Shown: positions 3,920-58,945 of the stretch, piece by piece
Layout of the letters: every line of letters begins with the position of its first letter
Position numbering within the stretch: position 1 is the first letter of the stretch
From: a virus
Reading direction: 5' to 3' (one strand)
Length of the DNA stretch: 64,000 nucleotides
IMG/VR virus record: IMGVR_UViG_3300050343_000266
Span: 1 to 64,000 of that record
Translations under genes and position numbers: made by a program
The notes under the pieces: generated by a model
Databases searched by the model: none
What the model was told of the DNA's origin: nothing
Seen by the model: the letters and a program-made list of their open reading frames with translations, nothing else

Positions 3920-5110
3920 ATGAATCAATCAGGAGATAACGGGTTCAATCAAATCCTCACTGCTGCTAAGGAGCGGCGTGGGGACTTGTCCGTTGACACA
4001 ATGATTGTTAGTTCTCATCTTTCGCAGATGAGGATGTTCATGCTGCGCCGTGGCATTGAATTTTATGCAGAACAAGATAGCTACGGCTATCGAAAAGAGT
4101 TTCTTGCAAAAGTCTGCGAGCAGAATATGCTCGACATGAAACTAGATAGTATTGTTGATTATTTCTTATGTGATGGACAAGGCTTATTTTACTTCCGTCC
4201 ATCTGGTGATGATTATCAACTTCTTTACTTTCCAAAAGAAAACTATAGAGCCTACAGAGATCAGGAAGGTAATTTAAGTAGTGTCATATTACGCTATACC
4301 TTTAACGTACAAGAAAACAAAGGCTTTGATAACTATCCCACTAACACTCAACGTGGCGGAAAGAAAAAATATATCAAACTTCAAGTTTATAAAGATCGAA
4401 TCGAGCAAACGATCTCTGATGAAAAAATTGAATTTGAAAATTCATTAGGGGGACCACAAGTTTCATTGCCAGGTCAGGTTGAAACACTCACGAATAGTCT
4501 TGGTTTTATCCCAGCAGTAGAAATCTATAACTATATGGACTGTACCGGCGAGGCTGCTGGTAATGGTGAGTTTGAATGGCTGTCTAACCAAATCATGTAT
4601 CACAATGAATTGGTTCAGAACGTTCGTAAGAACTTGAAGTTCTTCGGCAATCCTACGTTAATTTCTAGTCGTCCTAAGCAGGATATTATTGAGAGTGGTG
4701 ATGAAAATACTTTCCGTCCAACAATAAGTTCTCAAGCTGGCTTCAGTGCTATTGGACGTTCTAGTACACGTGTAAGTGAACCGTTTGGCGGTGCTTCCAT
4801 GCTAGACGGACAGATCAGAGTCCCGAGAGTTATTGCAAACCTTGAACCAACAGATCGTATTAGCTATCTAACGCCTGACAGCGTTAGTGGTGATCAAAAC
4901 ATGTATGTCAAGCAATACCGTCAAGAGATTCGTTTAGCACTTGGTGGTGTCGATGATCTTGACTTCCAAGCTGCTGGCACTGCATATGAAATCAAGACTC
5001 TGTATGGACGTGTTGCCGCGACAGCTGAAAAGAAAGCACGTGCCATGTTTACGTATGGTCTATGTCGCTTATTTGCATTAATGATCTCTCATGAAGAAAC
5101 GTATGTTTAA
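3920..5110 (+). CDS. Portal protein, N-terminal part
   Basis: A 396-residue frame that reads as a podovirus- or siphovirus-type portal: an N-terminal helical domain (SQMRMFMLRRGIEFYAEQDS), a stem region with YFPKENYRAYRDQEGNLSSV, and a helical C-terminal part. The portal is the dodecameric ring at the capsid vertex through which DNA is packaged. The ATG at 3920 is preceded by AAAGAGAAAGTAG. The frame ends abruptly at 5108-5110. The protein clearly continues in the frame that opens at 5091, so one base is missing or extra near 5097. Assignment rests on length, position between TerL and scaffold, and sequence character. Confidence 0.75.
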   Translation: MNQSGDNGFNQILTAAKERRGDLSVDTMIVSSHLSQMRMFMLRRGIEFYAEQDSYGYRKEFLAKVCEQNMLDMKLDSIVDYFLCDGQGLFYFRPSGDDYQLLYFPKENYRAYRDQEGNLSSVILRYTFNVQENKGFDNYPTNTQRGGKKKYIKLQVYKDRIEQTISDEKIEFENSLGGPQVSLPGQVETLTNSLGFIPAVEIYNYMDCTGEAAGNGEFEWLSNQIMYHNELVQNVRKNLKFFGNPTLISSRPKQDIIESGDENTFRPTISSQAGFSAIGRSSTRVSEPFGGASMLDGQIRVPRVIANLEPTDRISYLTPDSVSGDQNMYVKQYRQEIRLALGGVDDLDFQAAGTAYEIKTLYGRVAATAEKKARAMFTYGLCRLFALMISHEETYV

Positions 5111-6203
5111 TGAGAGTTTTAGCGTAGCAATTGGATTGGAGAAGCCTGTAATTCCACTCATAGAAGATTATCCAAATCCAGAGGAATATCAAAAGCAGAA
5201 TGAAAAATACAGGAAGAACTTTGCTAAGTATGAACGCTTAAAGAATGAAGCACTGAACGCTATACTTGAGGGAGGCGAAATGCCCCCTGGTGTAACTGGA
5301 CTTATTCCAGATGGAAGCACACAAGTTGACTGGCGTTGGATGGGTGAAGTTTTTGAAGATAGCTCTGATGAGATCCTCCAAAACTCCATCGTTGTCCGAA
5401 ACCTGCAAGAAGCAGGCGTTGGATCAATTGAAGCACTGAAGTACCTCTTCCCAAGTAAAACTGACGAAGAACGTTCAGCAATGCTAAGTGGATTTCCATT
5501 CAGAGTTGTCCAACAAACACAACAAAGTATTTCTCAATTCATTGGATTACTCGGCAACCTATATCAGTTGCCACATCCACAAACACCGGATAAGCCTTTG
5601 GCATCCGACCCGAACCTAGATATCACTGGGTTCTTATACAGATCACTAGATTATTTACGTAAGGAGTTAAGTTACAGTGGAAAGTACAAACCAAGTAGCA
5701 ACGACACAGGCATCAGTAAGCTCTCCGATGCAGACATCCGCCGCGCCGGTCTCGGCAGGACAGTACGCGACGAGCGCACCCCAGACATTCCAGGGCTCAC
5801 CGATGGGCCAGGCACCTCAGGCTCCGGTCTACCAGGCGCAGGCCCCGGTAGCGCAGGCTTCGGCACCAGCGCAGGCCAGCAATCCGTGGCAGGAGGCGTT
5901 CCAGGCTCTGAGCGCAAGTTTGAATACAAGCAGCCCCTCCCAGGCCCAGGTTCCATCCTCGGCGTATCAGACGCCAACACCTCAGGCACTTATCCAGGCT
6001 CCGCTGGCTTCGGTTCCCCAAACCCAGCAGCAAGCCCAGTATTCGGATCACCGGACTTACAGTCCCCAAGCTTCAACCCAGGCTTATCAGCAGCAGGCTT
6101 ACCAGCAGCAGCTGGCAGCTCAGGAGGCGTACCAGGCGCAGCAAATGCAGGCTCCGCAGGTAAACGACGGGTACCTAAGTCAAATCAGCGACGAAAGTCT
6201 TGA
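5091..6203 (+). CDS. Portal protein, C-terminal part (end unclear)
   Basis: Continues the portal: FNESFSVAIGLEKPVIPLI, a helical EEYQKQNEKYRKNFAKYERL, then LRKELSYSGKYKPSSND. Portal-like sequence is convincing to about 5670. From 5677 the scaffold gene starts in another frame, yet the portal frame stays open for 527 more bases and would add a Gly/Pro/Ala tail ending KRRVPKSNQRRKS. Either a frameshift has removed the real stop near 5660-5760, or the two genes truly overlap over low-complexity sequence. I favour a lost stop. No start codon of its own is expected; the ATG at 5091 is internal. Confidence 0.55.
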   Translation: MKKRMFNESFSVAIGLEKPVIPLIEDYPNPEEYQKQNEKYRKNFAKYERLKNEALNAILEGGEMPPGVTGLIPDGSTQVDWRWMGEVFEDSSDEILQNSIVVRNLQEAGVGSIEALKYLFPSKTDEERSAMLSGFPFRVVQQTQQSISQFIGLLGNLYQLPHPQTPDKPLASDPNLDITGFLYRSLDYLRKELSYSGKYKPSSNDTGISKLSDADIRRAGLGRTVRDERTPDIPGLTDGPGTSGSGLPGAGPGSAGFGTSAGQQSVAGGVPGSERKFEYKQPLPGPGSILGVSDANTSGTYPGSAGFGSPNPAASPVFGSPDLQSPSFNPGLSAAGLPAAAGSSGGVPGAANAGSAGKRRVPKSNQRRKS

Positions 6204-6348
6204 AGTCCTTGAGCACTTTGGTGCTGAAGCCCCTTCCCTTCTGAACACCTATGCCTGTGCCGTTGAGGATGCCCTCATCGAGCAAGTGCAGCGTGGTCAG
6301 TCCAGTCCCTCATGCTTGAGGCAGCTGGTGAAGAGCGTGCAGCCATGA
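5677..6348 (+). CDS. Capsid scaffolding protein, N-terminal part
   Basis: Starts at GTG 5677, ten bases after AAGGAG at 5661-5666, a good ribosome binding site. The N-terminal half is Ala/Gln/Pro-rich, disordered low complexity (many QAP and QAYQQQ units). It is followed by the conserved-looking block SDESLEVLEHFGAEAPSLLN and a helical segment. This layout is typical of scaffolding proteins of cyanophages, which guide capsid assembly and leave before maturation. The frame is lost near 6300 and the protein continues in the next feature. The GC content of this gene is visibly higher than its surroundings. Confidence 0.75.
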   Translation: MESTNQVATTQASVSSPMQTSAAPVSAGQYATSAPQTFQGSPMGQAPQAPVYQAQAPVAQASAPAQASNPWQEAFQALSASLNTSSPSQAQVPSSAYQTPTPQALIQAPLASVPQTQQQAQYSDHRTYSPQASTQAYQQQAYQQQLAAQEAYQAQQMQAPQVNDGYLSQISDESLEVLEHFGAEAPSLLNTYACAVEDALIEQVQRGQSSPSCLRQLVKSVQP

Positions 6349-6699
6349 ACCTCATGCTCACCGACCCAGACGTTCTTGCTGATTACGTCAACGATTTCTA
6401 CGGCCCTGAAGGTCCATATCCAACTGAGACTCCTCAAGAGGCATATGACCGTGAGCAGTACGAAGCTTACGAACAGTTCGAAGCTGAAATCGAAGCACAA
6501 GAAATGGGTCAAGTCCCCCCTTCCTTCCAGCGTCCACAAATGGACATGCCAGTTCCCGGTCGCCAGCAGAACCCTGCTAATGACTTCTGGGGTGGCTTTA
6601 GCCGAGATGATGGATCAGAACCCTGAGAACGCATGGCAGTACCTTTCCCAGGCACAGCCCGGCATGCTCTCTACCAAGATGCTTGTTCAGGACACCTGA
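6312..6699 (+). CDS. Capsid scaffolding protein, C-terminal part
   Basis: Continues the scaffold as MLEAAGEERAAMNLMLTDPD, an acidic Tyr/Glu-rich helix (YDREQYEAYEQFEAEIEAQE) and PPSFQRPQMDMPVP. This frame stops at 6624-6626. A shift near 6595 restores GGFSEMMDQNPENAWQYL and ends at 6697-6699 with MLSTKMLVQDT. Two shifts in one gene again point to sequence errors. The scaffold C-terminus normally binds the capsid protein. Confidence 0.65.
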
Positions 6700-6712
6700 T
6701 AAGTAACAGTAA

Positions 6713-6735
6713 GGGGGTACTTAGATGTATCCCCT
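6713..6735 (+). terminator. Hairpin after scaffold gene
   Basis: GGGGGTAC, a six-base loop, then GTATCCCC form a GC-rich stem just after the scaffold stop. There is no long T run, so it may be a weak terminator or an mRNA-stability hairpin. Confidence 0.45.
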
Positions 6736-6764
6736 ACAATATAAGTATTAGTTAGTAATTGAAA

Positions 6765-7257
6765 ATGCAAAGAATTTCCCCTTTTACTATTGCAGAAGAA
6801 ATGCTGCAAAATGCATCAGCCCAGCGTGGTCAAGGTGGAATGACACGTACGTCAGCTCCACTAGGCCCACAAGCAATGGCTGCTCCTAGTCCGTACACTG
6901 ATGTACGTGCTGCTGATGATGCTCAGGCTTATAACAACAATCGAATGATGGAGCAAAACATCAATCAAAATACTTTTACTGCCATGCAGCAGCAGGTGTT
7001 AATGCTAAGCGTGGTGTTCAAAAGATGCAACTTGCTTGCAGTAGACAACCAAGATATATAAAGCCAATTCACTACTTACACAGCGCACAGGTGAAGTCCT
7101 AAGCATGATGAATTCCCCAGCTACGTTGGCAATGGGTAATATGTCGCCACCACAAATGGCAGCATTCCGAGCTGACATTGCAACTGGCAAAGCAATGGCA
7201 ATGGGAGTTAATCCAGATTTAGTTATGAATCAAGTTAACGAACAACGTTACGGTTAA
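6765..7257 (+). CDS. Hypothetical structural-cluster protein (frameshifted)
   Basis: Starts MQRISPFTIAEEMLQNASAQ at ATG 6765. The long frame breaks near 6990 and again near 7050. The restored reading continues AGVNAKRGVQKMQLA and then TGEVLSMMNSPATLAMGN to end MNQVNEQRYG at a TAA near 7257. It is Met/Gln/Ala-rich and helical. I do not recognise a family. It lies between scaffold and sigma factor, so a minor virion role is possible. Confidence 0.45.
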
Positions 7258-23447: not shown

Positions 23448-23972
23448 ATGGCTAAGTTAGATTTTCCTGATGCTTCTTACTCTCCTTGGGTTGCTCCAAA
23501 CAATGTAATCTATACATATATTGGAACATCACCAAATGGGTATTGGGAAGCTAACACTGCCAATGCCTCAACAAACTTAACTGCTGTCTTTGTAGAACGC
23601 ACTGGCAGCACAATGACTGGTACGTTGATATCTGGTCTCTCTGGTGCTGGTTATGGATATCAACTAAACCATGGGAATACAAACCTAGGAGGATTATATA
23701 AAGATACTGGATCTTCAAGATTAATATTAGGTGATGGTTCTACCACCAAAATTGACCTACAAGGTTCATCAGGTGCTGCATCGTTTTCTGGCGCAATTGG
23801 TACATCAGGACAGAACACCGTAAACGAAGCTAGCACATTAAAATTTAGTCAAGAAAGTGGCAATCTTTCTCAAATCAGAGCTTACGGTTCAAATGCTTCT
23901 ACGTCTGGAAGTCTTGAGTTTAAAGTTGGTCCTAGTACCGGAGCACCTTCCACGCCGCTGACTTTGAACTAG
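23448..23972 (+). CDS. Second S74 fibre, N-terminal part
   Basis: 174 residues: MAKLDFPDASYSPWVAPNNV, an N-terminal virion-attachment region, then fibre shaft (ERTGSTMTGTLISGLSGAGY; GSSGAASFSGAIGTSG). The frame ends at a TAG at 23970-23972. The shaft motif GGAASFAGDIQATK continues without loss one base out of frame, so this and the next feature are one fibre gene broken by a single-base shift. Confidence 0.8.
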   Translation: MAKLDFPDASYSPWVAPNNVIYTYIGTSPNGYWEANTANASTNLTAVFVERTGSTMTGTLISGLSGAGYGYQLNHGNTNLGGLYKDTGSSRLILGDGSTTKIDLQGSSGAASFSGAIGTSGQNTVNEASTLKFSQESGNLSQIRAYGSNASTSGSLEFKVGPSTGAPSTPLTLN

Positions 23973-26310
23973 CGGAGGAGCTGCCTCATTCGCGGGCGAT
24001 ATCCAAGCCACTAAACCAAGGAGCAGTACAGCAGGTTCGACTACGGGAGGGCTATCCATCAACCCTTCCGATTCAACCATCTATTACAACTTCAGAGTTG
24101 ACGAAGTAGATAATGGTTTGCATATAGACACGACGGCCGGTGCTAACCGGATCCTGTTTAGTAACGATGGAGACGCCACATTTGAGGGCAATGTTGCAGC
24201 TAGCAACCTCAACTGTAGTGGGAGTGTAGACGTGGGAAACCCTTCTACTAATGCTTACAAGCAAGGATTTTTAGCAGTTCCGACCCCAAGCAGCGGCGGG
24301 TCATATTTCCAAGTTTACGGTAAAAACGGAGACGTTAATAAAGCTTTCTCTGTTTACAACGGAGACCTTGCCGTCCTAACTGCGAGTATTGACAGCACAG
24401 GGGCCGCCTCATTCGCGGGTCCAGCCACTGTAGTCAATGCATCCACGCCCACCGCTTATACAAGGCTTTACGATGGCCATATGCTTATCAGCAACACTAC
24501 CGCATTCGGCCAAGCGTTTGGTTTGTATAACACCACTACAAGTGCATACGAGATTGCCATGTTTATGGATGGTAGGGCCACATTTGCGGGTGCAGTTGAA
24601 TCACAAAGTTACTTTAAAGTGACTAATACAGGTATTGCTTATTTGCAACCCAATACAGTAACTGCTTTTCAGGCATATGAATCATCAGGTCCGGCAACAA
24701 TTAACCTGAACAATAATGGCTCGTCCTCATTTGCTGCAGACGCAAGCATCAACGGTCTGACTGTTGGCCATGGTCCGGGTAACGTTTCAAGCAATACAGT
24801 AGTCGGAGAAACTGCTCTTGTTTCAAGTTCTGGTGGATACAATACAGCAGTTGGTCATCAAGCTATGAGGAGCAATACTACTGGTGAAGACCATGTAAGC
24901 GTTGGTTGGCTAACTCTTTATCATAATACTACCGGTCACTCCAACACAGCAATTGGCCGTACCGCATTGTATTCAAATACTACCGGTACCTCTAATGTCG
25001 CAATTGGTCGTGATGCACTTAGATTAAATACCACTGGTTCCACTAATACTTCTATCGGACGAGAGTCTTCATATTCCAATACTACTGGTCAATATAATAC
25101 TGTCTGCGGTTATCAAAGTTTATATAACAACAGTACTGGTTACAATAATTCGGCATTTGGATACAAAGCCCTTGCTAACAATTCAACTGGTACTCAAAAT
25201 ACAGCGGTTGGCTATGAGGCCATGAGATATACCTCTACAGGCGGCAATAATGTAGCCATTGGCTTACACGCTATGTACGGAAATAGCACAGGGTACGAAA
25301 ATGTTGCCGCAGGTGTTAATGCACTTATTAGCAATAGTACAGGGGCATGGAATACTGCATTGGGCTATAAAACTCTTGAAGCTAATACAACAGCAAATCA
25401 TAATACTGCTGTTGGAAGAAATGCTCTTATTAGCAACACTACTGGTACGATAAATACTGCTGTTGGTTCTGGAGCAATGTTTGGAAATACTGTTGGTAAT
25501 TACAATACTGGTATTGGCTATTCAGCCTTGAGTACTAGTAGTACAGGGGATAGAAATGTAGCCATAGGGTATCAGACTTTGTTCGCAAATACTTCTGGAG
25601 GATATGCCACAGCTGTGGGTATGTATGCCGGTTATTACAATACTACTGGCATGGGCAATGACGCTTACGGCTACAATGCTCTACATCACAACACTACTGG
25701 TCATTACAATACAGCACTCGGCTATCAAAGCCTGCATACAAATACTACTGGCCATCGCAACTCTGCTTTTGGACTAAATGCTCTTTATTATAATACAACT
25801 GGCACATATAATGTTGGGTTAGGACGTGAAGCTTTAAATGCTTGTACTACTGGTTCTGCAAATATTGGCATAGGTGGTACTAACAGTACTGGAACTTTTA
25901 CTCCGCCATTTAACGTCGTAACAGAGAGTAACCGATTAGTCTTAGGTCATACATCAATCACAAATGCCTATGTAAAAGTAGCTTGGACTGTTACATCTGA
26001 CGAGCGCGATAAGATGAACTTTGCTCCAGTGCCTTATGGTCTGGACTTTGTTAATCAACTTAAGCCGACTGCATATCAATTTAAGGTAGATCGTGACACT
26101 GAAACACCTGATGGCGATGTACGTTATGGATTTAAAGCGCAAGATATCCTTGCATTAGAAGGCAACAACCCAGTCATTATTGACATTGAAGATCCAGATC
26201 ATCTAAAATATAAAGGTGAACATCTCGTTCCTGTTTTAGTCAATGCAGTGCAAGAACTGACTACAATGGTTAAAGAACTTCAAGCAGAAATCAAAACACT
26301 TAAAGGTTAA
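23971..26310 (+). CDS. Second S74 fibre with YadA-like head repeats, main part
   Basis: Continues the fibre from about 23971; the first possible start inside it is TTG 24118. After a shaft region, roughly 16 repeats of about 22 residues of the form GNxNTAVGYxALxxNTTG follow. These are the left-handed beta-roll repeats of YadA-like adhesin heads. The C-terminus, TSDERDKMNFAPVPYGLDFV...YGFKAQDILALEG...LVPVLVNAVQELTTM, is a second S74 self-cleaving chaperone. Receptor-binding fibre. Total length with the N-terminal part is about 955 residues. Confidence 0.88.
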   Translation, partial: SGGAASFAGDIQATKPRSSTAGSTTGGLSINPSDSTIYYNFRVDEVDNGLHIDTTAGANRILFSNDGDATFEGNVAASNLNCSGSVDVGNPSTNAYKQGFLAVPTPSSGGSYFQVYGKNGDVNKAFSVYNGDLAVLTASIDSTGAASFAGPATVVNASTPTAYTRLYDGHMLISNTTAFGQAFGLYNTTTSAYEIAMFMDGRATFAGAVESQSYFKVTNTGIAYLQPNTVTAFQAYESSGPATINLNNNGSSSFAADASINGLTVGHGPGNVSSNTVVGETALVSSSGGYNTAVGHQAMRSNTTGEDHVSVGWLTLYHNTTGHSNTAIGRTALYSNTTGTSNVAIGRDALRLNTTGSTNTSIGRESSYSNTTGQYNTVCGYQSLYNNSTGYNNSAFGYKALANNSTGTQNTAVGYEAMRYTSTGGNNVAIGLHAMYGNSTGYENVAAGVNALISNSTGAWNTALGYKTLEANTTANHNTAVGRNALISNTTGTINTAVGSGAMFGNTVGNYNTGIGYSALSTSSTGDRNVAIGYQTLFANTSGGYATAVGMYAGYYNTTGMGNDAYGYNALHHNTTGHYNTALGYQSLHTNTTGHRNSAFGLNALYYNTTGTYNVGLGREALNACTTGSANIGIGGTNSTGTFTPPFNVVTESNRLVLGHTSITNAYVKVAWTVTSDERDKMNFAPVPYGLDFVNQLKPTAYQFKVDRDTETPDGDVRYGFKAQDILALEGNNPVIIDIEDPDHLKYKGEHLVPVLVNAVQELTTMVKELQAEIKTLKG
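24790..25880 (+). repeat. Beta-roll coding repeats
   Basis: Tandem units of about 66-72 bases encode AVGYxALxxNTTG-type repeats. The units share aatactactggt-like sequence and could expand or contract by recombination. Confidence 0.8.
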
Positions 26311-27765: not shown

Positions 27766-28065
27766 ATGGCTAATAGAGCTGGAGCAAAGTGCAAAGCATG
27801 TGCTCATTCAAAGAGTAAAAAGAAAGGCGCTATGAAAGGCATGACCGTCAAAGGCGGACACAAACTTTCAGTCAAGCGTGGTGCCGGTTTAACCGCTAAA
27901 GGCCGAGCATCTATTAACAAAAGAACTGGTAGCAATTTAAAAGCACCCGCACCTAATGGCAAACCTGGTACTAAAGCAGGCGCTAGAAAGAAATCATTCT
28001 GTGCTCGCTCACGTGGCTGGACTGGTGAACGAGGTAAAGCAGCACGCAAACGTTGGAAATGCTAA
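27766..28065 (+). CDS. Lys/Arg-rich basic protein (DUF6321-like)
   Basis: 99 residues, very basic. Contains TVKGGHKLSVKRGAGLTAKG, NKRTGSNLKAP and SFCARSRGWTGERGKAARKR ending in WKC. This matches the layout I know for the DUF6321 family, found in many aquatic viruses. Cys residues at both ends (CKACAHS; WKC) may bind metal. Nucleic-acid binding is likely from charge; the true role is unknown. Confidence 0.7.
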   Translation: MANRAGAKCKACAHSKSKKKGAMKGMTVKGGHKLSVKRGAGLTAKGRASINKRTGSNLKAPAPNGKPGTKAGARKKSFCARSRGWTGERGKAARKRWKC

Positions 28066-28371: not shown

Positions 28372-28519
28372 CGATTTCCCTACACGTATGGCAGGTCAAG
28401 CGCTACAGCCTTATGTCAACACAGGGGAAGGTTGCGCAAAAATGCCAGCAAAATATCCTGCTAAACCACGTGGTGGCATGAGTCACGGACCAGAATTATT
28501 AGGACAGAGAAATGGCTAA
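28364..28519 (+). CDS. Small hypothetical protein
   Basis: 51 residues from GTG 28364, overlapping the previous stop: VDNDFPTRMAGQALQPYVNT, then KMPAKYPAKPRGGMSHGPEL. ATG 28388 is an alternative start. Pro/Gly-rich and basic. It overlaps the next gene by eight bases. Confidence 0.5.
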   Translation: MDNDFPTRMAGQALQPYVNTGEGCAKMPAKYPAKPRGGMSHGPELLGQRNG

Positions 28520-28883
28520 AGGTATTGCAACAAAAAAAGATCCCAAGAAATGGGCAGCTGCTAAGGCAAAAGCCAAAGCACGTATGGGTGGTAAGCACAG
28601 TGCACGGGCAATGCAGCTAGCGACCAAATACTATAAATCTGCTGGTGGTAAGTACGAAGGAAAGAAACCTTCAGCTAAAAATAATAAGATGAAAAAGTGG
28701 ACTAAAGAAGATTGGGGTACACGCTCAGGTAAAAATAGTACAGAGGGTAGTAAAGCTACGGGAGAACGTTATTTGCCTAAAAAGAAACGAGATGCGATGT
28801 CAGCTCAAGCCTATAAAAAAACTAGTGATAAGAAACGCAGTGATACAGCCAAAGGAAAACAATATAGTCAACAGCCTAAGTAG
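28512..28883 (+). CDS. Lys-rich basic protein (DUF5872-like)
   Basis: 123 residues, about a third Lys/Arg. The C-terminal part, KKWTKEDWGTRSGKNSTEGS, ATGERYLPKKKRDAMSAQAY and SDKKRSDTAKGKQY, fits the DUF5872 family as I know it. The N-terminal part is an Ala/Lys helix like a histone H1 tail (KKWAAAKAKAKARMGGKHSA). Probably binds nucleic acid; the role in the phage is not known. Confidence 0.7.
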   Translation: MAKGIATKKDPKKWAAAKAKAKARMGGKHSARAMQLATKYYKSAGGKYEGKKPSAKNNKMKKWTKEDWGTRSGKNSTEGSKATGERYLPKKKRDAMSAQAYKKTSDKKRSDTAKGKQYSQQPK

Positions 28884-28912: not shown

Positions 28913-29092
28913 ATGGACAGACGTAAAAAGGGCAAGCGCATTACGCTTAATAATAATATCCCTGGACTGCCTGGTAATACACCGTTTATTCCTACGAATG
29001 GTGCAGGACCTGGACGACTTGATCCACGGTCAGCTGGACACGATGGTCAAGCTTACATAGATCGCAATCGATATAACCAAAACAGTCATTAG
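28913..29092 (+). CDS. Small hypothetical protein
   Basis: 59 residues: MDRRKKGKRITLNNNIPGLP, GNTPFIPTNGAGPGRLDPRS, then GHDGQAYIDRNRYNQNSH. A basic start and a Pro/Gly/Asn-rich rest. Its stop overlaps the next GTG start. Confidence 0.5.
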   Translation: MDRRKKGKRITLNNNIPGLPGNTPFIPTNGAGPGRLDPRSAGHDGQAYIDRNRYNQNSH

Positions 29093-29388
29093 TGAAAACC
29101 TTATATCTATATAGAAGTGGCGATAACACCTGTGTATCCCATGACAGCTATATACAAATGGGTGCGATGTCCCATTCGGTTGAACATCACATCAAACTAA
29201 ACCCAACGATCAACTGGATAGAAACCTACTGGTTGCCTGATGTTTTCATGCATCGTTATAAACGTGCAACATTTCAAGCACACGAACGAGTGTCTGGTGG
29301 CAAAGACAGCATCGAAACCCGGCCACGTGACTTTCCCGACGAAGGTGCATCACGAGGCTTATTGAGTGGCAAGCCTGTGGGAGATTAA
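29092..29388 (+). CDS. Hypothetical protein with duplicated 3' end
   Basis: 98 residues from GTG 29092: MKTLYLYRSGDNTCVSHDSY, WIETYWLPDVFMHRYKRATF, ending SRGLLSGKPVGD. The last 30 bases reappear, with only silent changes in the shared codons, just after the LamG gene (30502-30537). No family recognised. Confidence 0.55.
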   Translation: MKTLYLYRSGDNTCVSHDSYIQMGAMSHSVEHHIKLNPTINWIETYWLPDVFMHRYKRATFQAHERVSGGKDSIETRPRDFPDEGASRGLLSGKPVGD

Positions 29389-29409
29389 CATAGGTCGTAG
29401 TTTTCGTTA

Positions 29410-29419
29410 GTTAAAATAG
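29410..29419 (+). promoter_or_regulatory. Late-promoter-like box GTTAAAATAG
   Basis: It lies 23 bases before the ATG at 29443. Confidence 0.5.
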
Positions 29420-29442
29420 TTATATTGCCGAGGATAAAGTCA

Positions 29443-30498
29443 ATGCTTAACAATGAAAATAAAAGGTTAGGGTACACCGAAGTTTATTACAACTATAAAG
29501 CTGACAAATTTTTTACAGAAGACTTTGGCAATCAATTTAAAGGATTAGATATTACGTTATCCAATGGCGGTGGTGGAGGAAGTGGTATTCAGGCTGGAGA
29601 TAATATTAGTCAACTTACAAACGATGCAAACTATGTTGTTTCAGGAGCAAATATTAGTACTTTAGTAAATGATATAGGATATTTAACGTCCTACAGTATT
29701 CCATCGGTAACCAGCCTACCAACTACAAATTTAAGCTTTGGCAATCTTGCTGCTTTATCTACAGATAACAGTCCATATTTTTATGATGGTACAGATTGGA
29801 GAAGAATCTTCTTAGCAGGTGTCCCACCTCAAACAGGAGATCCCGATACTGATTGGGATAAAGTTATTCTTCGAGTACCTTTCAATACAACTACTACTGA
29901 TGTTAAAAGTAATTTCACAGGCACTGTATCTGGTTCTCAAGCAGTTATTACTGGTAGTCCAAGAAAATTTGGAGCTGGTGCACTTAAAGTCCAAAACTCA
30001 AGCTATATTACCTACAGTGGTAATAGTCTTGGCGCATTTTTAGATAACGATTTCACAATAGAATTTTGGCTCTATATAGATTCATTTAATGCCCAAGATC
30101 AAGATACAGGTATATTACGCAAAGGCAGTACTTATTTCTATTTTGATTACGTTGGATTTAATCAGATGGTCTTTAAAATACACCTATCGAATGTAGGTGC
30201 AACGACACCCGATCTCGTCTATAACACCGTAGGTAACATGCCAACTGGCGGTTGGCATCATATTGCTTACTGTCGAAATGCGACGTCTGGTTTGTGTCAA
30301 TTGTTTGTTGATGGTACGTCAGAAGGAACCGTTAATCTCAACAACCTGGTCGATTCAGTAGGCAGTGATTTATTCATTGGTGATCTAATAAACACTTCAG
30401 CAGATATGCTTATGGATGATTTAAGAATATCTAACTTTGAACGATATACGTCTAATTTCACAGCACCAACTGCAGAGCTGCCTACAAGTGGCAGTTAA
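29443..30498 (+). CDS. LamG/concanavalin A-like lectin fibre protein
   Basis: 351 residues from ATG 29443 (MLNNENKRLGYTEVYYNY), which has a GAGG site upstream. The middle has GGGGGSGIQAGDNISQLTND and short fibre repeats. The C-terminal 200 residues form a LamG/ConA-like jelly roll: FGAGALKVQNSSYITYSGNS, FTIEFWLYIDSFN, GGWHHIAYCRNATSGLCQLF, VDGTSEGTV, then MLMDDLRISNFERYTSNFTA. Such domains bind sugars, so a receptor-binding or head-fibre role is likely. It is flanked by a duplicated 30-base stretch and may be a moved cassette. Confidence 0.8.
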   Translation: MLNNENKRLGYTEVYYNYKADKFFTEDFGNQFKGLDITLSNGGGGGSGIQAGDNISQLTNDANYVVSGANISTLVNDIGYLTSYSIPSVTSLPTTNLSFGNLAALSTDNSPYFYDGTDWRRIFLAGVPPQTGDPDTDWDKVILRVPFNTTTTDVKSNFTGTVSGSQAVITGSPRKFGAGALKVQNSSYITYSGNSLGAFLDNDFTIEFWLYIDSFNAQDQDTGILRKGSTYFYFDYVGFNQMVFKIHLSNVGATTPDLVYNTVGNMPTGGWHHIAYCRNATSGLCQLFVDGTSEGTVNLNNLVDSVGSDLFIGDLINTSADMLMDDLRISNFERYTSNFTAPTAELPTSGS

Positions 30499-34810: not shown

Positions 34811-36433
34811 ATGGGCAAGAAGAACAGAGGTGGAAATAAAGGCGGTGGGAGAAGGGGAGGCTCATCACCTAAGTCATCACCTAAGCCGTCACGGAGTCCA
34901 TCACGGAGTCCATCACGCAATTCTTCACCAAGTCCTTCACGCAGTCCATCACGTAGTCCTTCACGGAGTCCTTCATCAAGTCCAGCACCAGCTAGGCAGC
35001 AAGCTAAAGCAGCAGCTCAAATGAGCGTTAAAGATCGTAGGGCAGGTGCAAAAGCTGCTGGTGTAAGCCTTAGGGATTTCAAGCAAGGTAAGACTGGAGC
35101 AAACGCTGTTGCTAGAAAAACTGCTCAAGTTAATAAAAGAAACCCTCAAAGCTATGGAAGTGGTGGAAATAATAGTTTTAGTAACGCTCAATTGGCAGGT
35201 AATAGTAAAGGTGGTGGCTTAGTTAAAGCCAGACGTAACGCAGCACAAAACGCTGGAATGTCTATGACAGACTATAAAGCTGGAGTAAAAGGTGGATCAA
35301 TTGATAAGCATGGTAGAGCCAAAACAGGCGGTGGCATGACTAACCAAAGTGGTGGAAGTGCTTGGGACAATCTATATAAAAACTTTAACCAAGGCGAATG
35401 GGATGCAGAAGTAGCGGCTAACGAGAAGGAATACTATAAAAACAGCCCTAACAGTGGGATGAAAAGAGGCTGGCAGGGTGCACAGTTAGGTAAAAATGGA
35501 TTCACGATGGATTCAAATAACGTAAATATGATTCCAGCATTAGGGAAATACGGATTTAAAGCAGGGGATTTTGCGTTTGATCCTGATGGCTATGGAATTC
35601 ACGATGAAAACAAAGATGGCAGAGAGGGCGCTGGAATTACAGGACGTATTTCATACGTCAGTAAAGGTGGCGGAGTACATATGGAACGTGATGGCTCTGG
35701 AAGCATTAATCCAAACTGGGATAAATACTCTAAATCCGGTTCAGCGAGGATGAGTTCAGAAGGATTGTATCAAGATAAATATAACGTCGGCTATCACGGT
35801 GCGGATGATAAAGGTGAGGATTATGCATCTACTTCAAACCTAGGAGATATTGGTAGCTATTTTAAAGGCTTCAACCAAGGAGATAAATCATTTGGTGAAG
35901 CATACCACGGGTGGGCTGGTGGAAATCGCAAAGATGGGTATGCAGGTGATGTCCTAAAGTTTATTGATCAGGGACACATGAAGGTCAGCGATGATGACTA
36001 CAACATGCTTGTTACTGATGCATCGAATTACGACTGGGGCAATCGTAATGAAATTGCAGGTAGAGACGCTGGCAGCTCTACTTATGATTCACGATCAGGC
36101 GGTGAATCACAGAACAACATAACTGCTAATGAAAACTTCTATAAGAATAGAGATGCTGGTTATCATATGGCTGGCTCTATGGATCATGAACAAGCTGCTG
36201 CTAAGTATGGAAATACTTCTCAAAACTTTGGAAGCCAAGAATCAGACTTTGCTGCACCGACTCAAGCTGCTAGTAATTTTGAAATGCCTACTGTTCAACA
36301 AAGTATGGGACCCCAGTACCAAGGCTGGCAGGAACAGATGGGGAGCACATCCCAAAGTCCATATGCTACTAGAAGTAAGTCTAGTAAAATGAACTTTAAC
36401 TTTAGCCCTTACAAATTCCAGCAAGGACAGTAG
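34811..36433 (+). CDS. RS-repeat/Gly-rich low-complexity protein
   Basis: 540 residues, uninterrupted. Opens MGKKNRGGNKGGGRRGG, then a roughly 40-residue Arg-Ser-Pro repeat (SPSRSPSRSPSRNSSPSPSR), like RS domains of eukaryotic RNA-binding proteins. Next come a basic helical part (MSVKDRRAGAKAAGVSLRDF and the similar RRNAAQNAGMSMTDYKAGVK, an internal repeat) and a long Gly/Asn/Asp/Tyr-rich part (YGFKAGDFAFDPDGYGIHDE). No family recognised. It shares its opening and SP repeats with 2307-3870 and 54714-55543. It is probably a virion or condensate-forming protein. Its own promoter box suggests late expression. Confidence 0.7.
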   Translation: MGKKNRGGNKGGGRRGGSSPKSSPKPSRSPSRSPSRNSSPSPSRSPSRSPSRSPSSSPAPARQQAKAAAQMSVKDRRAGAKAAGVSLRDFKQGKTGANAVARKTAQVNKRNPQSYGSGGNNSFSNAQLAGNSKGGGLVKARRNAAQNAGMSMTDYKAGVKGGSIDKHGRAKTGGGMTNQSGGSAWDNLYKNFNQGEWDAEVAANEKEYYKNSPNSGMKRGWQGAQLGKNGFTMDSNNVNMIPALGKYGFKAGDFAFDPDGYGIHDENKDGREGAGITGRISYVSKGGGVHMERDGSGSINPNWDKYSKSGSARMSSEGLYQDKYNVGYHGADDKGEDYASTSNLGDIGSYFKGFNQGDKSFGEAYHGWAGGNRKDGYAGDVLKFIDQGHMKVSDDDYNMLVTDASNYDWGNRNEIAGRDAGSSTYDSRSGGESQNNITANENFYKNRDAGYHMAGSMDHEQAAAKYGNTSQNFGSQESDFAAPTQAASNFEMPTVQQSMGPQYQGWQEQMGSTSQSPYATRSKSSKMNFNFSPYKFQQGQ

Positions 36434-42114: not shown

Positions 42115-42747
42115 TTAGAAGTCGTTCAAGATATGGGATTCATCTAAAGGATCATCTTTTGGACGTTGCCAAATACGTATCGATTTAGATTTACCATTAG
42201 CGTCTTTCCTGCTTGTTACCAAACGACGCCACCCCATTGACTGAAGTACATCAGCAACACGGCGTCCTTCACGACGTGACTGGTTGCGAGGGTCAAGCTC
42301 CAGTGCATGTGTAAGCACATCGGCTGCAGTGACCTCCTGCTTGATTGAAACGTAAGCTCCAATCTTGTCTAACCAAGGATCTGGGTCGCCAAATTCTTGG
42401 ATGTATTCAGAGATCGCAGCAATCTCACCACTGTTGAATTCATATCCAACGCCGCTACGGTAAGCATGTACCGCCGCTGCCCATAGACTATCTCGTTCTT
42501 GCTCTAATTGCTTCCAAGGAATCTGAAATCCTCCTGCAATTTCTAGTGGAACGAATCGTCTATTGCCAGTACTGTCAACAAGGAATTGATTCCTATTGGT
42601 AGTGCCAATCATCACAAAGCGACGTGGCAACTTCGATGGGAGTGATGCATATGGATAACGAACCTCATCCACTCGACTTGTGATTAGGTTCTTGAAGTTC
42701 TCAATGTTCCTGACATTGAAGTAATTATCGATCTCAGGTAAGCTCAA
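42115..42747 (-). CDS. Primase-helicase, VirE-type helicase C-terminal part
   Basis: 210 residues that complete the VirE-like P-loop helicase of the next feature: LPEIDNYFNVRNIENFKNLI, RRFVMIGTTNRNQFLVDSTG, NRRFVPLEI (sensor/arginine region), then a winged-helix-like tail (DPRNQSRREGRRVADVLQSM). One frameshift near 42740 separates the halves: the upstream frame ends AWLLELT and this one should join as LLELPEIDNYF. Probably one gene with a sequence error, or a real split. Confidence 0.8.
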   Translation of the reverse strand: MSLPEIDNYFNVRNIENFKNLITSRVDEVRYPYASLPSKLPRRFVMIGTTNRNQFLVDSTGNRRFVPLEIAGGFQIPWKQLEQERDSLWAAAVHAYRSGVGYEFNSGEIAAISEYIQEFGDPDPWLDKIGAYVSIKQEVTAADVLTHALELDPRNQSRREGRRVADVLQSMGWRRLVTSRKDANGKSKSIRIWQRPKDDPLDESHILNDF

Positions 42748-44350
42748 GCAACCATGCCATATGCAGGCGGTACTGCTCTTTCATCAGAGTCTCCAAGGGG
42801 ATGGTGATCTCTGCGAACAGGGCATCAGGTACCAAGTTTCTTGCAAACATGGACTTACCTACACCCTGAGCACCCACAAGAATGGGTAGCCAGGACATGG
42901 ATGCACCTGGGTTGTAGGCACGAGCTACTGCACCAATCATCATGCGTTGCATGGCAAGAGTTGCTAGCTGATGCTTGTTACCTAGGAAGACTTCTCCAAT
43001 ACGGTCCCAATCTTTATGCGGGATCGCATGTGCTGCACAACTATCAAGGTACCGAGTGATCGGGCAGTAACCGTTTTTACCTGCTGCGTACTGAATAGCT
43101 GACTTGATACGCGGCTCAGGAATGAAGACCCCGTACTCACAAGCAAGCTTGGTAGTCATGATGTCTAGGTCATTACCTTCGAGCTGAACAACTTTCCCGT
43201 TGGGGTCGTCATACTCAATGGCATTCGTAAGTCTGTTCTTACGTAGACCAGTCAAGATTGCTTTGACTTTATCTACGTCAGCTTCACGTTCTTTGGCAGC
43301 ATCATCACTGCTTTTCTTTGGTCGTCCACGTTTGGCAACCTTTTTGGAATCCGGTAAGGGTTCCGGTTCAAACTGCATAGTTTCTCCTTTTGCTTGTCGT
43401 ATAACCTCTTCAAAACTGACCAAAGGATCAGTCTCTGTATAACCAACTGCTCCACCAGATGCACCAAAGCGCACATCACGGGGAAGCTTACTAGTCCAAT
43501 TAGGATCTTGCTTTTTTGCAAGCGAATACAGTTTAGTATGCCCAGCATATTTGCCGAGACCTTTCCACTTAAACGCACGAATGTTTTCTTCTTTGTGACC
43601 GTGGTGGCCACGAATGACCCAGTCAACCCAGTCATCAAACAGAACGCCACCTACACCAGCACAAGCTGCCATGACAGGCACGTAGTAAGACTCGTACTCA
43701 TCGTCGTCAGACGGACGTAGGAACTCTCGAAGGAGCCACTGACATCGCCTTACGTCAATATCCTCACAGTCTGAATGTACAAACTCTGTAGGTTCGTCGT
43801 AATCAATGTCAGTCAGTAGGAATTCAGGTACCAATGCACCATCATTAAGACGATGACGGGTAGCTGTATTGCCATACCAAAGGCGCTCAGGCTTTTGTCC
43901 ACAGTTATCTTTGAGATCATCGAGCTGCAGATCGGCAAGCAAACGGTTAACGATTAACCAGTAAGCACCACGATGCTGTCTAGAAGATTCAAGATCAATT
44001 TCTAATGCAAAGATCGCACGGAATCTGTGCTCTTCTTCTGTGTGACTTGCAGAAGTATAAGTAGCAAGGCACCACTCTTTAGCAGTTGTGGTTTCCCAAA
44101 ACTTATCAAGAGTAGTGTCGCCATCAAAGTCAATGACAATGATGTTGCTACCAGCTGCATTATCTGCACGCCTGTGTCGATCAATAAAATGAGTGGCGCA
44201 CCAGCCGTAGCCATGCTCCACCCATCCAAGTAGCCAGTCAATGCTGACTAATACATTTGACCAACCACGAGCAACCAGTTGTGGGTTGCTTTTATTTTGG
44301 CAGTTCTTATTGACTGCTATCTTCAGTATCTTTTGCACTCTCCATCTCAT
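42734..44350 (-). CDS. Primase-helicase (AEP-like primase plus VirE helicase)
   Basis: 538 residues. The N-terminal domain resembles the archaeo-eukaryotic primase type of plasmids and phages: NIIVIDFDGD (metal-binding Asp), TYTSASHTEEEHRFRAIFAL and CGQKPERLWYGN. A middle part has a basic linker (KKVAKRGRPKKSSDD). The C-terminal VirE-type ATPase has Walker A PILVGAQGVGKSMFARNLVP. It is the replicative primase-helicase, in place of a T7 gp4-type protein. The start near 44350 overlaps the exonuclease gene by 44 bases; a later start is possible. Confidence 0.8.
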   Translation of the reverse strand: MRWRVQKILKIAVNKNCQNKSNPQLVARGWSNVLVSIDWLLGWVEHGYGWCATHFIDRHRRADNAAGSNIIVIDFDGDTTLDKFWETTTAKEWCLATYTSASHTEEEHRFRAIFALEIDLESSRQHRGAYWLIVNRLLADLQLDDLKDNCGQKPERLWYGNTATRHRLNDGALVPEFLLTDIDYDEPTEFVHSDCEDIDVRRCQWLLREFLRPSDDDEYESYYVPVMAACAGVGGVLFDDWVDWVIRGHHGHKEENIRAFKWKGLGKYAGHTKLYSLAKKQDPNWTSKLPRDVRFGASGGAVGYTETDPLVSFEEVIRQAKGETMQFEPEPLPDSKKVAKRGRPKKSSDDAAKEREADVDKVKAILTGLRKNRLTNAIEYDDPNGKVVQLEGNDLDIMTTKLACEYGVFIPEPRIKSAIQYAAGKNGYCPITRYLDSCAAHAIPHKDWDRIGEVFLGNKHQLATLAMQRMMIGAVARAYNPGASMSWLPILVGAQGVGKSMFARNLVPDALFAEITIPLETLMKEQYRLHMAWLLELT

Positions 44351-53580: not shown

Positions 53581-54227
53581 TAGAAGTTCTCCTCTTCTGT
53601 GTCAGCAGGCAATGCACGTAAGTCATCTAGGACAGTGACTTCAGTAGGAACACCGGATATCTCTGCAGACAGGATTTGTACTGCATCTGTAACGCTTCTG
53701 ATGATGCCTTCCTTGTCTCTGTCAGAACGCAAGTCGCGAAGCTGCTCATACATATGATTGTCAGAAACACGCTCGCCATCTAGATAGATGTTGGCGAAGG
53801 AAGGACGCTTGCCTTGATCACCACGCTTGGACCAGAAGGTGAATGGTGTGTTGAAGTCATACATTCCTGACCCCATGATTCCCATCAGAGCTGTGACGAC
53901 AGCTTGTGACCACATGGTCTCGACACCAGAAGTGAAGCAAAGCTTGATACCATTAGGACCACGCAGCTTGAGATTTAGCTTTGATGCTTTGAATGTACCA
54001 ATGTCATGAACAATTTCAATGCCATAGCAGACAACATTTTTGAATGATTGTAGTGGCTTGCCGTTTGCTTGATTAAGAAGAGCAATGGGCTTGGAGTCTT
54101 TGTAGAAGAAAAATACAGCGTCAGATTCTTTCATTACGCCAACTCCAATAAGTAGGTCGTAATCAACTGGCGCAGATAGACCACCAGTAAACTCAGAAAT
54201 AATTGAAGCAGGATTAGCGATTGTCAT
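53580..54227 (-). CDS. Hypothetical protein with acidic Phe tail
   Basis: 215 residues: LSAPVDYDLLIGVGVMKESD, VVCYGIEIVHDIGTFKASKL, WSKRGDQGKRPSFANIYLDG. It ends DTEEENF, an acidic tail with terminal Phe as in single-strand-binding proteins. The body is beta-rich. First gene after a terminator hairpin, so it probably heads its own transcript toward RNR. A DNA-binding role is a guess from the tail. Confidence 0.5.
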   Translation of the reverse strand: MTIANPASIISEFTGGLSAPVDYDLLIGVGVMKESDAVFFFYKDSKPIALLNQANGKPLQSFKNVVCYGIEIVHDIGTFKASKLNLKLRGPNGIKLCFTSGVETMWSQAVVTALMGIMGSGMYDFNTPFTFWSKRGDQGKRPSFANIYLDGERVSDNHMYEQLRDLRSDRDKEGIIRSVTDAVQILSAEISGVPTEVTVLDDLRALPADTEEENF

Positions 54228-54269
54228 AGTAAAAAGTAAGTGAATGCCATATAGGCAATAGAAAATAGA

Positions 54270-54285
54270 GGACCCATTAGGGTCC
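54270..54285 (-). terminator. Hairpin terminator with TAAT loop
   Basis: GGACCC and GGGTCC, six perfect pairs around a four-base loop (TAAT on the - strand), followed by TCTATTTTCTATT. One of a family of four. Confidence 0.65.
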
Positions 54286-54290
54286 GTATA

Positions 54291-54455
54291 TCAGCGGTTT
54301 CGAGCAGGATCTAAAGCCATTAGCCGATTGGCTTGTGCTTGGCAGCGATCAGCTACAAGTTGATAAACCTCTTGTGGGTTATCAGCTTCATGCTCTTGAA
54401 TTAATTGCACCAGGAAATGCATAAACAATCCTGTTAGCTCTCTTGTATTTGTCAT
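54291..54455 (-). CDS. Small hypothetical protein
   Basis: 54 residues: MTNTRELTGLFMHFLVQLIQ, EHEADNPQEVYQLVADRCQA, QANRLMALDPARNR. All-helical. It ends just before a terminator hairpin. Confidence 0.5.
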   Translation of the reverse strand: MTNTRELTGLFMHFLVQLIQEHEADNPQEVYQLVADRCQAQANRLMALDPARNR

Positions 54456-54458
54456 TCG

Positions 54459-54626
54459 TCAGGCTGCTGCTAGTTCTCCTGCCATCTCAGCCAACTTGGC
54501 TGTAGCACGGCATTGAAGGACGATCCAAGCAAGCTCTCCTGATAGTTGATTTGTGTCGCAGAAATATTCGATTGTGTCGTCTATCAAACCTTCCAGCTCG
54601 GACAGCTGGTCGCGTGATAATTGCAT
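54459..54626 (-). CDS. Small hypothetical protein
   Basis: 55 residues: MQLSRDQLSELEGLIDDTIE, YFCDTNQLSGELAWIVLQCR, ATAKLAEMAGELAAA. All-helical and acidic, three bases before the next small gene. Confidence 0.5.
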   Translation of the reverse strand: MQLSRDQLSELEGLIDDTIEYFCDTNQLSGELAWIVLQCRATAKLAEMAGELAAA

Positions 54627-54677
54627 TCATGAGAGATATAAGTGTTCAGGCCCATCGCCGGGCACAACCTAAATATA

Positions 54678-54693
54678 GCGCCCATTAGGGCGC
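54678..54693 (-). terminator. Hairpin terminator with TAAT loop
   Basis: GCGCCC and GGGCGC around TAAT (- strand), followed by TATATTTAGG. It lies downstream of the Met-rich gene. Confidence 0.65.
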
Positions 54694-54713
54694 AATAGCT
54701 ATGACATTTATAC

Positions 54714-55355
54714 TTATTTTTTCAGGTTGTAATCAATTGATTTTCTTCTGCGAGCAAACTTCCCATCTTTCATTAATCCTTGGTACACATCAGCTTTAGA
54801 GGCGGCTCTTTCAGTTCCATAATAATTAACTGACGAACTTGGAGAAGGTGACGGAGATGGATTAGGGAAAGGAGATGGAGATGGAGATGGACTAGGAGAA
54901 GGCGATGGAGAAGGATTAGGAGAAGGCATTGGTATATCACTACTGCTAGGCATAGGAATTATTGGCATAGCAATAGTTGGCATACTCTTAGGAGGGGTAA
55001 TACGCGGCATAGGCATACGCCCAGGCATAGGCATACGCCCAGGCATAGGCATCTTCATAGGCATATTCATACCTGGCATCTTCATAGGCATATTCATGCC
55101 TGGCATATTCATAGGCATATTCATAGGCATATTCATAGGCATATTCATGGCATATTCATAGGCATATTCATAGGCATTCATAGGCATATCCATACCCGGC
55201 ATCTTCATAGGCATAAACATAGGCATGAACATTACCTTAGGCATAGGCATATTCATACCTGGCATCTTCATAGGCATGAACATTACCTTAGGCATAGGCA
55301 TAGGCATAGGCATAGGCATGCGCATAGGCATAGGCATGCGCATTACCACAGGCAT
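54714..55355 (-). CDS. Met/Pro/Asn repeat protein, main part
   Basis: 213 residues. A long Met-Pro repeat (MPMRMPMPMP, VMFMPMKMPGMNMP, GMNMPMKMPGMNMPMKM) is followed by an ITPPKSMPTIAMPIIPMP stretch, a Ser-Pro repeat (PSPNPSPSPSPSPSP) and a basic C-terminus (ERAASKADVYQGLMKDGKFA, RRRKSIDYNLKK). About a third of the repeat is Met. A NAYEYAYEYA stretch inside it is the same DNA repeat read out of frame, so slippage has occurred. The gene begins in the next feature; the two are joined by a shift near 55385. Function unknown. Met-rich repeats bind Cu(I) in other proteins, which is one possibility. Confidence 0.6.
   Translation of the reverse strand: MPVVMRMPMPMRMPMPMPMPMPKVMFMPMKMPGMNMPMPKVMFMPMFMPMKMPGMDMPMNAYEYAYEYAMNMPMNMPMNMPMNMPGMNMPMKMPGMNMPMKMPMPGRMPMPGRMPMPRITPPKSMPTIAMPIIPMPSSSDIPMPSPNPSPSPSPSPSPSPSPFPNPSPSPSPSSSVNYYGTERAASKADVYQGLMKDGKFARRRKSIDYNLKK
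55010..55340. repeat. 12-base tandem repeat (Met-Pro-Met-Asn/Lys coding)
   Basis: Repeats of cataggcatatt and variants (cataggcatact, cctggcatcttcataggc) run through about 330 bases. One unit encodes M-P-M-N or M-P-M-K on the - strand. Unit boundaries show small deletions near 55150 and 55180. Confidence 0.85.
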
Positions 55356-55543
55356 AGGCTTGGGTTGAGGCTTTGGTGCAGGCTGAGGTGAAGGTGAGGT
55401 GAAGGTGAAGGTGAAGGTGAAGGTGAAGGTCTAGGTGAAGGACGTGGTGAAGGTCTAGGCGATGGCCGTGGTGAAGGTTTAGGTTGAGGTCTAGGCATAG
55501 GCATGCTCATACCCATACCCATCATCATGTTTCTTCTACCCAT
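55343..55543 (-). CDS. Met/Pro/Ser repeat protein, N-terminal part
   Basis: Opens MGRRNMMMGMGMSMPMPRPQ, then an Arg-Pro-Ser repeat (PSPRPSPRPSPRPSPR). The frame then drifts into HLHLSLHQSL within a GAAGGT repeat; shifting near 55385 restores PSPSP and leads into the Met repeat. It starts three bases after the SET gene ends. The opening M-x-R-R-N and SP repeats match 2307-3870 and 34811-36433. Confidence 0.6.
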   Translation of the reverse strand: MGRRNMMMGMGMSMPMPRPQPKPSPRPSPRPSPRPSPRPSPSPSPSPSPHLHLSLHQSLNPSLCLW

Positions 55544-55546
55544 TGC

Positions 55547-55930
55547 CTATTCCTCAAATGTTGTATCTCCCACTCCGTAATCTAAAGTTAATTCGGAGCC
55601 TGCGGAAATTGTTTTAATGGCAAAAAATACCATACATTCATTGTAATCATCAATGTAATAGTTGATATTGCCTCCATCATCCGTATGGTTATACAGTGCT
55701 GCATGACCAAAGCCAATTACAGAGTATTCATCAGAGAATGCATAACAATGTGAATGTATTGTTGCTTCTTCTGTCTCTTGGTAAGGCAGATAGAGCATAG
55801 GAGACTCTTCTATTAGATCTCCTTCTTCAAAGTCTTCATTAGTGAAAACTCCATATCGATGTATGTTTGATTTTTTAATACATAGACCTGGACTGGTAAA
55901 TAAATCAGTCTTATTAATATTTGGATGCAT
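55547..55930 (-). CDS. SET-domain protein lysine methyltransferase (vSET-like)
   Basis: 127 residues, a minimal SET domain without pre- or post-SET parts. GLCIKKSNIHRYGVFTNEDF and EEGDLIEESPML form the N-SET strand (Y-G-V-F, F-x-x-G-x-(L/I)-I-E-E). IGFGHAALYNHTDDGGNINY carries the N-H(S/T) AdoMet motif, and FFAIKTISAGSELTLDYG the final E-(L/I)-T-x-D-Y-G with the catalytic Tyr. Length and motif order are like chlorella virus vSET, which methylates a histone Lys. Here the neighbours are a protamine-like basic protein (upstream) and the Met/SP-repeat protein, both possible substrates. This pairing is inferred. Confidence 0.85.
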   Translation of the reverse strand: MHPNINKTDLFTSPGLCIKKSNIHRYGVFTNEDFEEGDLIEESPMLYLPYQETEEATIHSHCYAFSDEYSVIGFGHAALYNHTDDGGNINYYIDDYNECMVFFAIKTISAGSELTLDYGVGDTTFEE

Positions 55931-55932
55931 AT

Positions 55933-55970
55933 AAAAAAAGTAGCTCCTTATGATTTTAAAGGAACTACTT
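55933..55970 (-). terminator. Terminator after basic protein gene
   Basis: On the - strand AAGTAGTTCCTT and AAGGAGCTACTT form a long stem followed by TTTTT. It ends the transcript of the protamine-like gene; the SET gene starts just beyond it. Confidence 0.8.
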
Positions 55971-56010
55971 ACATTTAATGACTATAAAAAAGTTAATTAA
56001 AGGCTTAATA

Positions 56011-56361
56011 TTAACGACGACGACGAGTAGCCCGACGAGTAGCGGCAGCAGCTTGACGTGTTGACCTACGAGCTGCACGCCGTTGCGCTGCAGCAGCTTG
56101 GCCACCAGCTGTGTTGCGTGTTTTTACACGGCTAGAGTTTTTGCCGTAAGTAGTACCGCCGCGCATCATTGATTTAACTGCGCCACCAGTTGCAGTTTTG
56201 CGTGTTGCTGATTTGACTGCGCCACCTGTTGTACGACGACTAGTTCGAACTGAACCATCAGCATTAGTACGCTTGCGTTGAATCGTACCGTCTTTACGCT
56301 TGCGTTCTTGAATGGTTGCTCCTCGTTTAGTACGTCGCGTACTAGTAGCTCGTTTCATCAT
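56011..56361 (-). CDS. Protamine/histone-tail-like basic protein
   Basis: 116 residues, mostly Arg, Lys, Thr, Ala and Gly. KRATSTRRTKRGATIQERKR, a repeat TTGGAVKSATRKTATGGAVK, then an Arg/Ala tail (RRAARRSTRQAAAATRRATR, RRR). The GGAVKS repeats and Ala-Arg helices resemble protamine, histone H1 tails or viral core proteins. It would bind phage or host DNA without sequence preference. It lies between Hli and a SET methyltransferase. Lys residues in the A-V-K-S repeats are possible methylation sites (inferred). Confidence 0.7.
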   Translation of the reverse strand: MMKRATSTRRTKRGATIQERKRKDGTIQRKRTNADGSVRTSRRTTGGAVKSATRKTATGGAVKSMMRGGTTYGKNSSRVKTRNTAGGQAAAAQRRAARRSTRQAAAATRRATRRRR

Positions 56362-58600: not shown

Positions 58601-58945
58601 TTAAATATAAGTAAAGCTTACATAATCTACACCTGGGTGTGTAAGTCCGATTGCTAATGCTGCTCCGTACGATAAATCAAGCTCACGAGCACCAATGTAG
58701 GGGCCGCGATCATTGATACGTACATCCACGCATCCTTGGTAACAAACGCGTAATTTTGTACCGAAAGGTAGCGTCTTATGTGCGGCGGTATGTCCGTACA
58801 TATTGTAAGTTTCGCCGTTGGCTGTTGTCCTGCCGTGGAAATAGCTACCGTACCAGGAAGAAAGCATGGAGCCTCCTGCCTGGACGGATGTGCCGAGGCT
58901 GAGCATTGCAACAGCAGCGAGAGTACTAATAGATTTAATAAACAT
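58601..58945 (-). CDS. Secreted RlpA-like double-psi beta-barrel protein
   Basis: 114 residues. A signal peptide (MFIKSISTLAAVAMLSLGTS, cut near VQA-GGS) is followed by the RlpA/barwin-like fold: SSWYGSYFHGRTTANGETYN, AAHKTLPFGTKLRVCYQGCV, INDRGPYIGARELDLSYGAA. His and the Asp of N-D-R-G-P-Y are the catalytic positions of lytic transglycosylases of this kind. It would act in the periplasm on peptidoglycan, at lysis or to remodel the wall during infection. Confidence 0.88.
   Translation of the reverse strand: MFIKSISTLAAVAMLSLGTSVQAGGSMLSSWYGSYFHGRTTANGETYNMYGHTAAHKTLPFGTKLRVCYQGCVDVRINDRGPYIGARELDLSYGAALAIGLTHPGVDYVSFTYI

Follow-up and report, generated by a model that had tools for sequence, protein, structure and literature searches.

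A vSET-like gene of a tailed phage and its recurrent Met-rich virion neighbor

The SET locus

The DNA considered here (the window) comprises positions 1 to 64,000 of a 72,332-base cyanophage contig, IMG/VR record IMGVR_UViG_3300050343_000266. Its terminase is 60% identical to that of cyanophage S-EIV1 over half its length, and about 93% identical to many viral contigs. The locus of interest, with psbA and a high-light-inducible (hli) gene on either side, has the following features:

54714..55543, minus strand: Met/Ser-Pro (Met/SP) repeat protein, about 276 residues, arm-type partner; two ORFs joined, orthologue in contig L198
55547..55930, minus strand: minimal SET-domain protein methyltransferase, 127 residues; Pfam SET, vSET sequence and fold match, motifs
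56011..56361, minus strand: basic GGAVKS-repeat protein, 116 residues; neighbor but probably not partner; kept in SET-minus G025, absent from SET-plus G014, G021 and G042
54720..56010, no strand assigned: block comprising SET and Met/SP; the close relative G025 lacks it, the DNA on its two sides being 92% and 79% identical

A small, secreted-looking double-psi beta-barrel protein (lytic transglycolase, PF03330; window 58601-58945) adjoins psbA.

On the minus strand, the basic gene is followed after 80 nt by SET, and SET after 3 nt by the Met/SP gene. The original prediction had set the SET gene beside both of the others; the 3-nt spacing to the repeat protein holds, but the basic gene is not a tight neighbor, a place that belongs to Met/SP.

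The 127-residue ORF is as had been described, with its YGVF, NHT and ELTLDYG motifs all present, and its product matches Pfam SET (PF00856) at 42.7 bits (E 8.5e-11; cut-off 22.4). The same Pfam family is matched by 16/16 long relative contigs, while NCBIfam gave 0 matches to the window protein and PHROGs weak matches only. The proposed kinship with the minimal vSET enzyme was borne out as well: vSET is the best PDB sequence match (E 2e-10) and the top fold match (Z 16.2 over 105 residues, 27% identity) of the AF2 model, which has a pLDDT of 80. N81-H82, Y63 and Y118, which include the NH motif and the catalytic Tyr, are invariant in 14 aligned sequences. Judged by sequence and modeled fold, the window gene encodes a vSET-like, compact SET-family protein methyltransferase, and its motifs predict that it binds AdoMet and methylates protein lysine. 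It is the most divergent member of its family, on a long branch of the SET tree.

The window protein and PBCV-1 vSET (A612L; PDB 1n3j/3kma) are both minimal single-domain viral SETs of about 119-127 residues, and vSET is the closest known protein in both sequence and fold. The two differ in setting: the window SET comes from a tailed phage of a bacterium, and phage SETs lie mostly in a virion-gene module, paired with a Met-rich virion arm, whereas vSET acts on eukaryotic histone H3. This histone is not expected in a bacterial host.

The Met/SP gene is read as two ORFs (55543->55343 and 55355->54714) because a CCTTCA repeat has lost 1 nt; a further pair of frame shifts that cancel each other gives AYEYAYEYA. 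A repeat protein with a basic tail had been claimed at this position and is real, but it had been taken as too short, since the joined product is about 276 residues long. The C-terminal tail (..KSIDYNLKK) is kept in the L198 orthologue, which indicates that Met/SP is a genuine gene. The protein has 16 Lys, so that the lysine loss described below for other phages is not displayed by the window itself.

Frame changes relative to G025 were found in 8/66 window proteins compared, which makes sequencing or assembly error likely. The splits affect the terminase, a virion structural protein, a primase/helicase and others (window 660-7254, 23448-26307 and 42118-44350; G000 68608-69121), and they reflect either error-prone assembly or gene decay.

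The adjacent basic protein

Does the SET enzyme act on the basic protein next door? The very basic GGAVKS-repeat ORF that had been reported is there, with a net positive charge of 28% and a 56%-identical orthologue in G025, and the original prediction was that the phage makes this protein and methylates it to build something like chromatin. The closeness of the two genes in the window and the Lys/Arg-rich composition of the protein would suit such a scheme. However, when the suggested check for co-occurrence was run, the two genes were found to part ways in both directions: G025 keeps the basic gene while it cleanly lacks window 54720-56010, SET and Met/SP being missing together, and in G014, G021 and G042, relatives that do have SET, no match to the basic gene was found. 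Nor did any basic gene stand out in the SET neighborhoods examined at other loci. A phage chromatin built by SET from this protein is therefore highly improbable, and the sequence comparisons suggest that the basic protein is a bystander and probably not the partner of SET. A trace of the chromatin idea survives in the lysine-rich arm of SET-minus homologues and in the positive N-terminus of T7 gp7.3 around the DNA end, both described below. The window encodes two more small, strongly basic proteins, at 27766-28065 (PHROG 10346) and 28512-28883 (PHROG 14910), both of unknown function.

A SET family with a recurrent arm

Single-sequence lookup of the window SET in viral contigs, genome contigs and phage records found no relatives, and the family came into reach only when the window SET was aligned with the two SETs from related phages and this alignment served as the query. 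The family comprises about 100 viral loci, and those examined fall into 20 clusters when grouped at 80% identity; the IMG/VR contigs compared are fragmentary, and some are almost copies of one another. A search of 50,697 phage records gave relatives from a single uncultured phage of 735 kb, present as two deposits (LR756501; L135 8223-8606); its SET has no low-complexity neighbor within about 5 kb. A scan of genome contigs with the SET alignment found no cellular relative, although its narrow patterns mean that this says little.

In most relatives SET lies in the virion module, and what recurs beside it is the low-complexity arm of a virion protein, in which Gly, Ser, Ala or Pro abound and Met usually appears at regular intervals. 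In the first of three architectures, SET is followed about 4-112 nt downstream, on the same strand, by a gene that has the arm as its N-terminus. This arrangement is found in at least six phage types (the window, L113, L148, L114/L132, L115/L117, L152-type and L155/L136-type), and its surroundings vary: in L113 and L148 the SET/arm gene pair stands before a T7-like portal, and in the L155/L136-type after the tail fiber. By a fixed criterion, Met-rich low-complexity N-termini occur in 35/2659 ORFs, 30 of them directly after SET; of the remaining five, two are cut off where the contig stops (L198, L199) and one belongs to the SET-bearing G021. Fiber S74 was tried as a constant partner of SET and rejected, as some SET-plus loci have other fiber ends and an S74-like end is present in SET-minus L319.

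Joint gain and loss of SET and the Met arm

The L155-type family, whose arm-protein homologues were fetched by conserved core peptides and not by SET or arm, allows the two features to be followed separately. SET and a Met arm are found together in 45 homologues, and 11 have no SET and a KKKK arm, with the start M(G/S/A)KKKKS.., in a sample that favors SET-plus relatives because the query alignment was built from SET-plus members. There are no interpretable exceptions to this split (L306 is without upstream sequence, and in L305 the ORF call is broken and SET is present), and no SET was found elsewhere on six contigs of the 11 SET-minus homologues. In the core tree, a quick search with SH-aLRT support only, supported branches force at least four SET switches, and close neighbors are of opposite type (L286 versus L280/L281).

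The arms differ sharply in composition. Over the first 60 residues, SET-plus homologues average 0.04 Lys and 11.1 Met, versus 7.7 Lys and 1.8 Met in SET-minus ones. The difference extends into the core of the arm-bearing protein, with 0.23% versus 1.25% Lys (counts that ignore relatedness), whereas a neighboring 633-residue protein has 1.74% versus 1.75%; GC is equal and core Arg is no different between the two groups. Strong Lys depletion of the arm protein is restricted to the L155 and L115 types; the L113 protein is Lys-rich, and no depletion is seen in the window. AF2 models the L155-type arm protein poorly (pLDDT 43), with the arm unstructured and the rest helical, and PHROGs give only a weak tape-measure match. 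A conserved Lys of the downstream protein was considered as the SET substrate in this type and dropped, since there is no invariant Lys column. The coupling of SET and arm, consisting of adjacency, joint gain and loss, and the change of the arm from Lys to Met, is well supported.

A similar relationship may exist at the pre-portal gene of T7-like phages. This hypervariable gene often encodes a lysine-rich N-terminus (27 hand-picked SET-minus arms were averaged). The only Met arms seen there are those of L113, L148 and L199, the last of which is truncated; since L113 and L148 were found through SET, the unbiased part of this result is the lack of a Met arm among 78 other pre-portal genes, several of which are on contigs that end too early to show SET. 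In T7 itself, the N-terminus of gp7.3 is positively charged and its density surrounds the end of the DNA inside the tail channel; upon infection the protein is ejected (PMC11784390). By position, immediately ahead of the portal, the arm gene of L113, L148 and their relatives corresponds to gp7.3; the SET-plus versions carry Met/Gly repeats at the site of the N-terminal lysines of many SET-minus relatives.

Other arrangements of SET and arm

In the second, T4-like architecture, the arm and then a Peptidase_S74 domain form the C-terminus of a large VrlC-like adsorption tail protein; SET comes next, and after it the split-off C-terminal half of the protein. (T4-like SET contigs with the split protein are L111, L122, L125, L128, L131, L146, L147 and L151.) The VrlC/adsorption-associated tail protein (PHROG 358) thus bears the arm in these contigs and is split by the arm-S74-SET insertion, whereas in seven SET-minus T4-like cyanophages (L376-L382) it is a single, uninterrupted ORF of 2400-2700 residues without arm or S74. 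The T4-like arm of L125 is rich in PRPSP and poor in Met, and Met is thus no universal feature of the arms.

The third architecture is that of the EIV1-like contigs G014, G021 and G042, in which SET is at another locus than in the window, away from virion genes, with no arm beside it; in the two such loci read in detail, it has an HNH gene on one side and a recombinase-like gene on the other. These three long SET-plus contigs represent a single clade, and all of them encode, away from SET, homologous very basic proteins:

G021 71614-72766; G014 28944-29681; G042 53972-54856: Met/Arg-repeat protein (..SRPMRSRPMRS..)

The first G021 ORF has 0 Lys and 54 Arg. The protein is absent from SET-minus G010, G025, G022 and S-EIV1.

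Could the SET enzyme have nothing to do with the arm and be an early takeover factor that hits only host proteins of the nucleoid, ribosome or photosynthesis? The auxiliary genes (psbA, hli) around the window SET would agree with this, as would the EIV1-like SETs away from virion genes, but the position of SET in the virion module of most relatives and its co-switching with the arm make a purely host-directed role improbable.

Alternatively, repeat DNA and a moron gene might simply be swapped together at tail loci as a recombination cassette, with no joint function. Repeat DNA is prone to recombination, and since the SET and arm genes touch, one exchange would move both. Transfer is in fact shown by the SETs of the unrelated contigs L148 and L152, which are sisters (support 100/98). 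On the other hand, the gene order is arm-S74-SET in the T4-like contigs and SET-arm elsewhere, the Met-rich style recurs though the arm sequences differ, the lysine loss reaches into the core of the arm-bearing protein, and EIV1-like contigs with SET elsewhere still encode the Met/Arg-repeat protein. That exchange is the whole explanation is thus doubtful.

How might SET and the arm work together?

The reading that we prefer, with a probability of about 0.5, is that SET is a methyltransferase of the late virion module and acts in concert with an arm of low complexity, usually rich in Met, on a virion or tail protein; in the window, Met/SP would supply this arm. In this scheme the enzyme would be active, and the Met repeats would probably serve as multivalent K-to-M pseudosubstrates that dock in the lysine channel of SET. 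Docking on the arm would keep SET on the tail protein, where it could methylate lysines of neighboring tail proteins, or those of the host after ejection. The arm protein would have shed its own lysines, while the methylated lysines would sit elsewhere. A multivalent pseudosubstrate arm is the simplest model because it covers the loss of lysines too.

There is a precedent for such trapping: H3K9M traps Clr4/G9a when AdoMet is present (PMC5030085), and AdoMet-dependent trapping by K-to-M oncohistones includes H3K36M/SETD2 (PMC5030085, PMC5335568). As in the oncohistones, Met replaces a Lys that faces a SET domain; the phage proteins differ in having arrays of Met, and the likeness is a resemblance only.

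A more conventional possibility is ordinary lysine methylation of the tail fiber, S74 or the arm-bearing protein during assembly, with the arm a co-traveling spacer and not a dock. SET lies in tail or virion gene neighborhoods in several phage types, and Lys is kept within the repeats of Met/SP in the window, L198 and L113. However, the L155-type arm protein is nearly Lys-free and has no invariant Lys, and the arm co-switches with SET, so this can only be entertained tentatively.

Finally, SET might methylate Met itself, so that the arm becomes a string of S-methylmethionine sulfonium cations, whose permanent positive charge would stand in for the lysine-rich, possibly DNA-contacting arm of SET-minus homologues. 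Such a reaction would account for the ability of a Met arm to take the place of a cationic one, but we consider it very improbable.

SET proteins are already named in uncultured-phage entries and known from viruses, so the enzyme itself is not new. The coupling of SET to Met-rich virion arms appears to be: in the open literature searched, which leaves most subscription journals outside, no publication on it was found, nor any paper combining "SET domain" and "cyanophage". Protein methylation in phage virions is a little-explored subject. If the docking model is true, SET with the swap of a Lys arm for a Met arm would be nature's own version of the K-to-M trick of cancer histones, and if SET rides on the tail, a methyltransferase may be delivered at infection. 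The idea is testable with two small proteins.

Low-complexity N-termini are also found in two other proteins of the window. One, at 34811-36433, begins with MGKKNRGGNKGGG..SPSRSPSR and has a counterpart in SET-minus G025; the other, at 2307-3758, begins with MARRNQGKGNKGGG.
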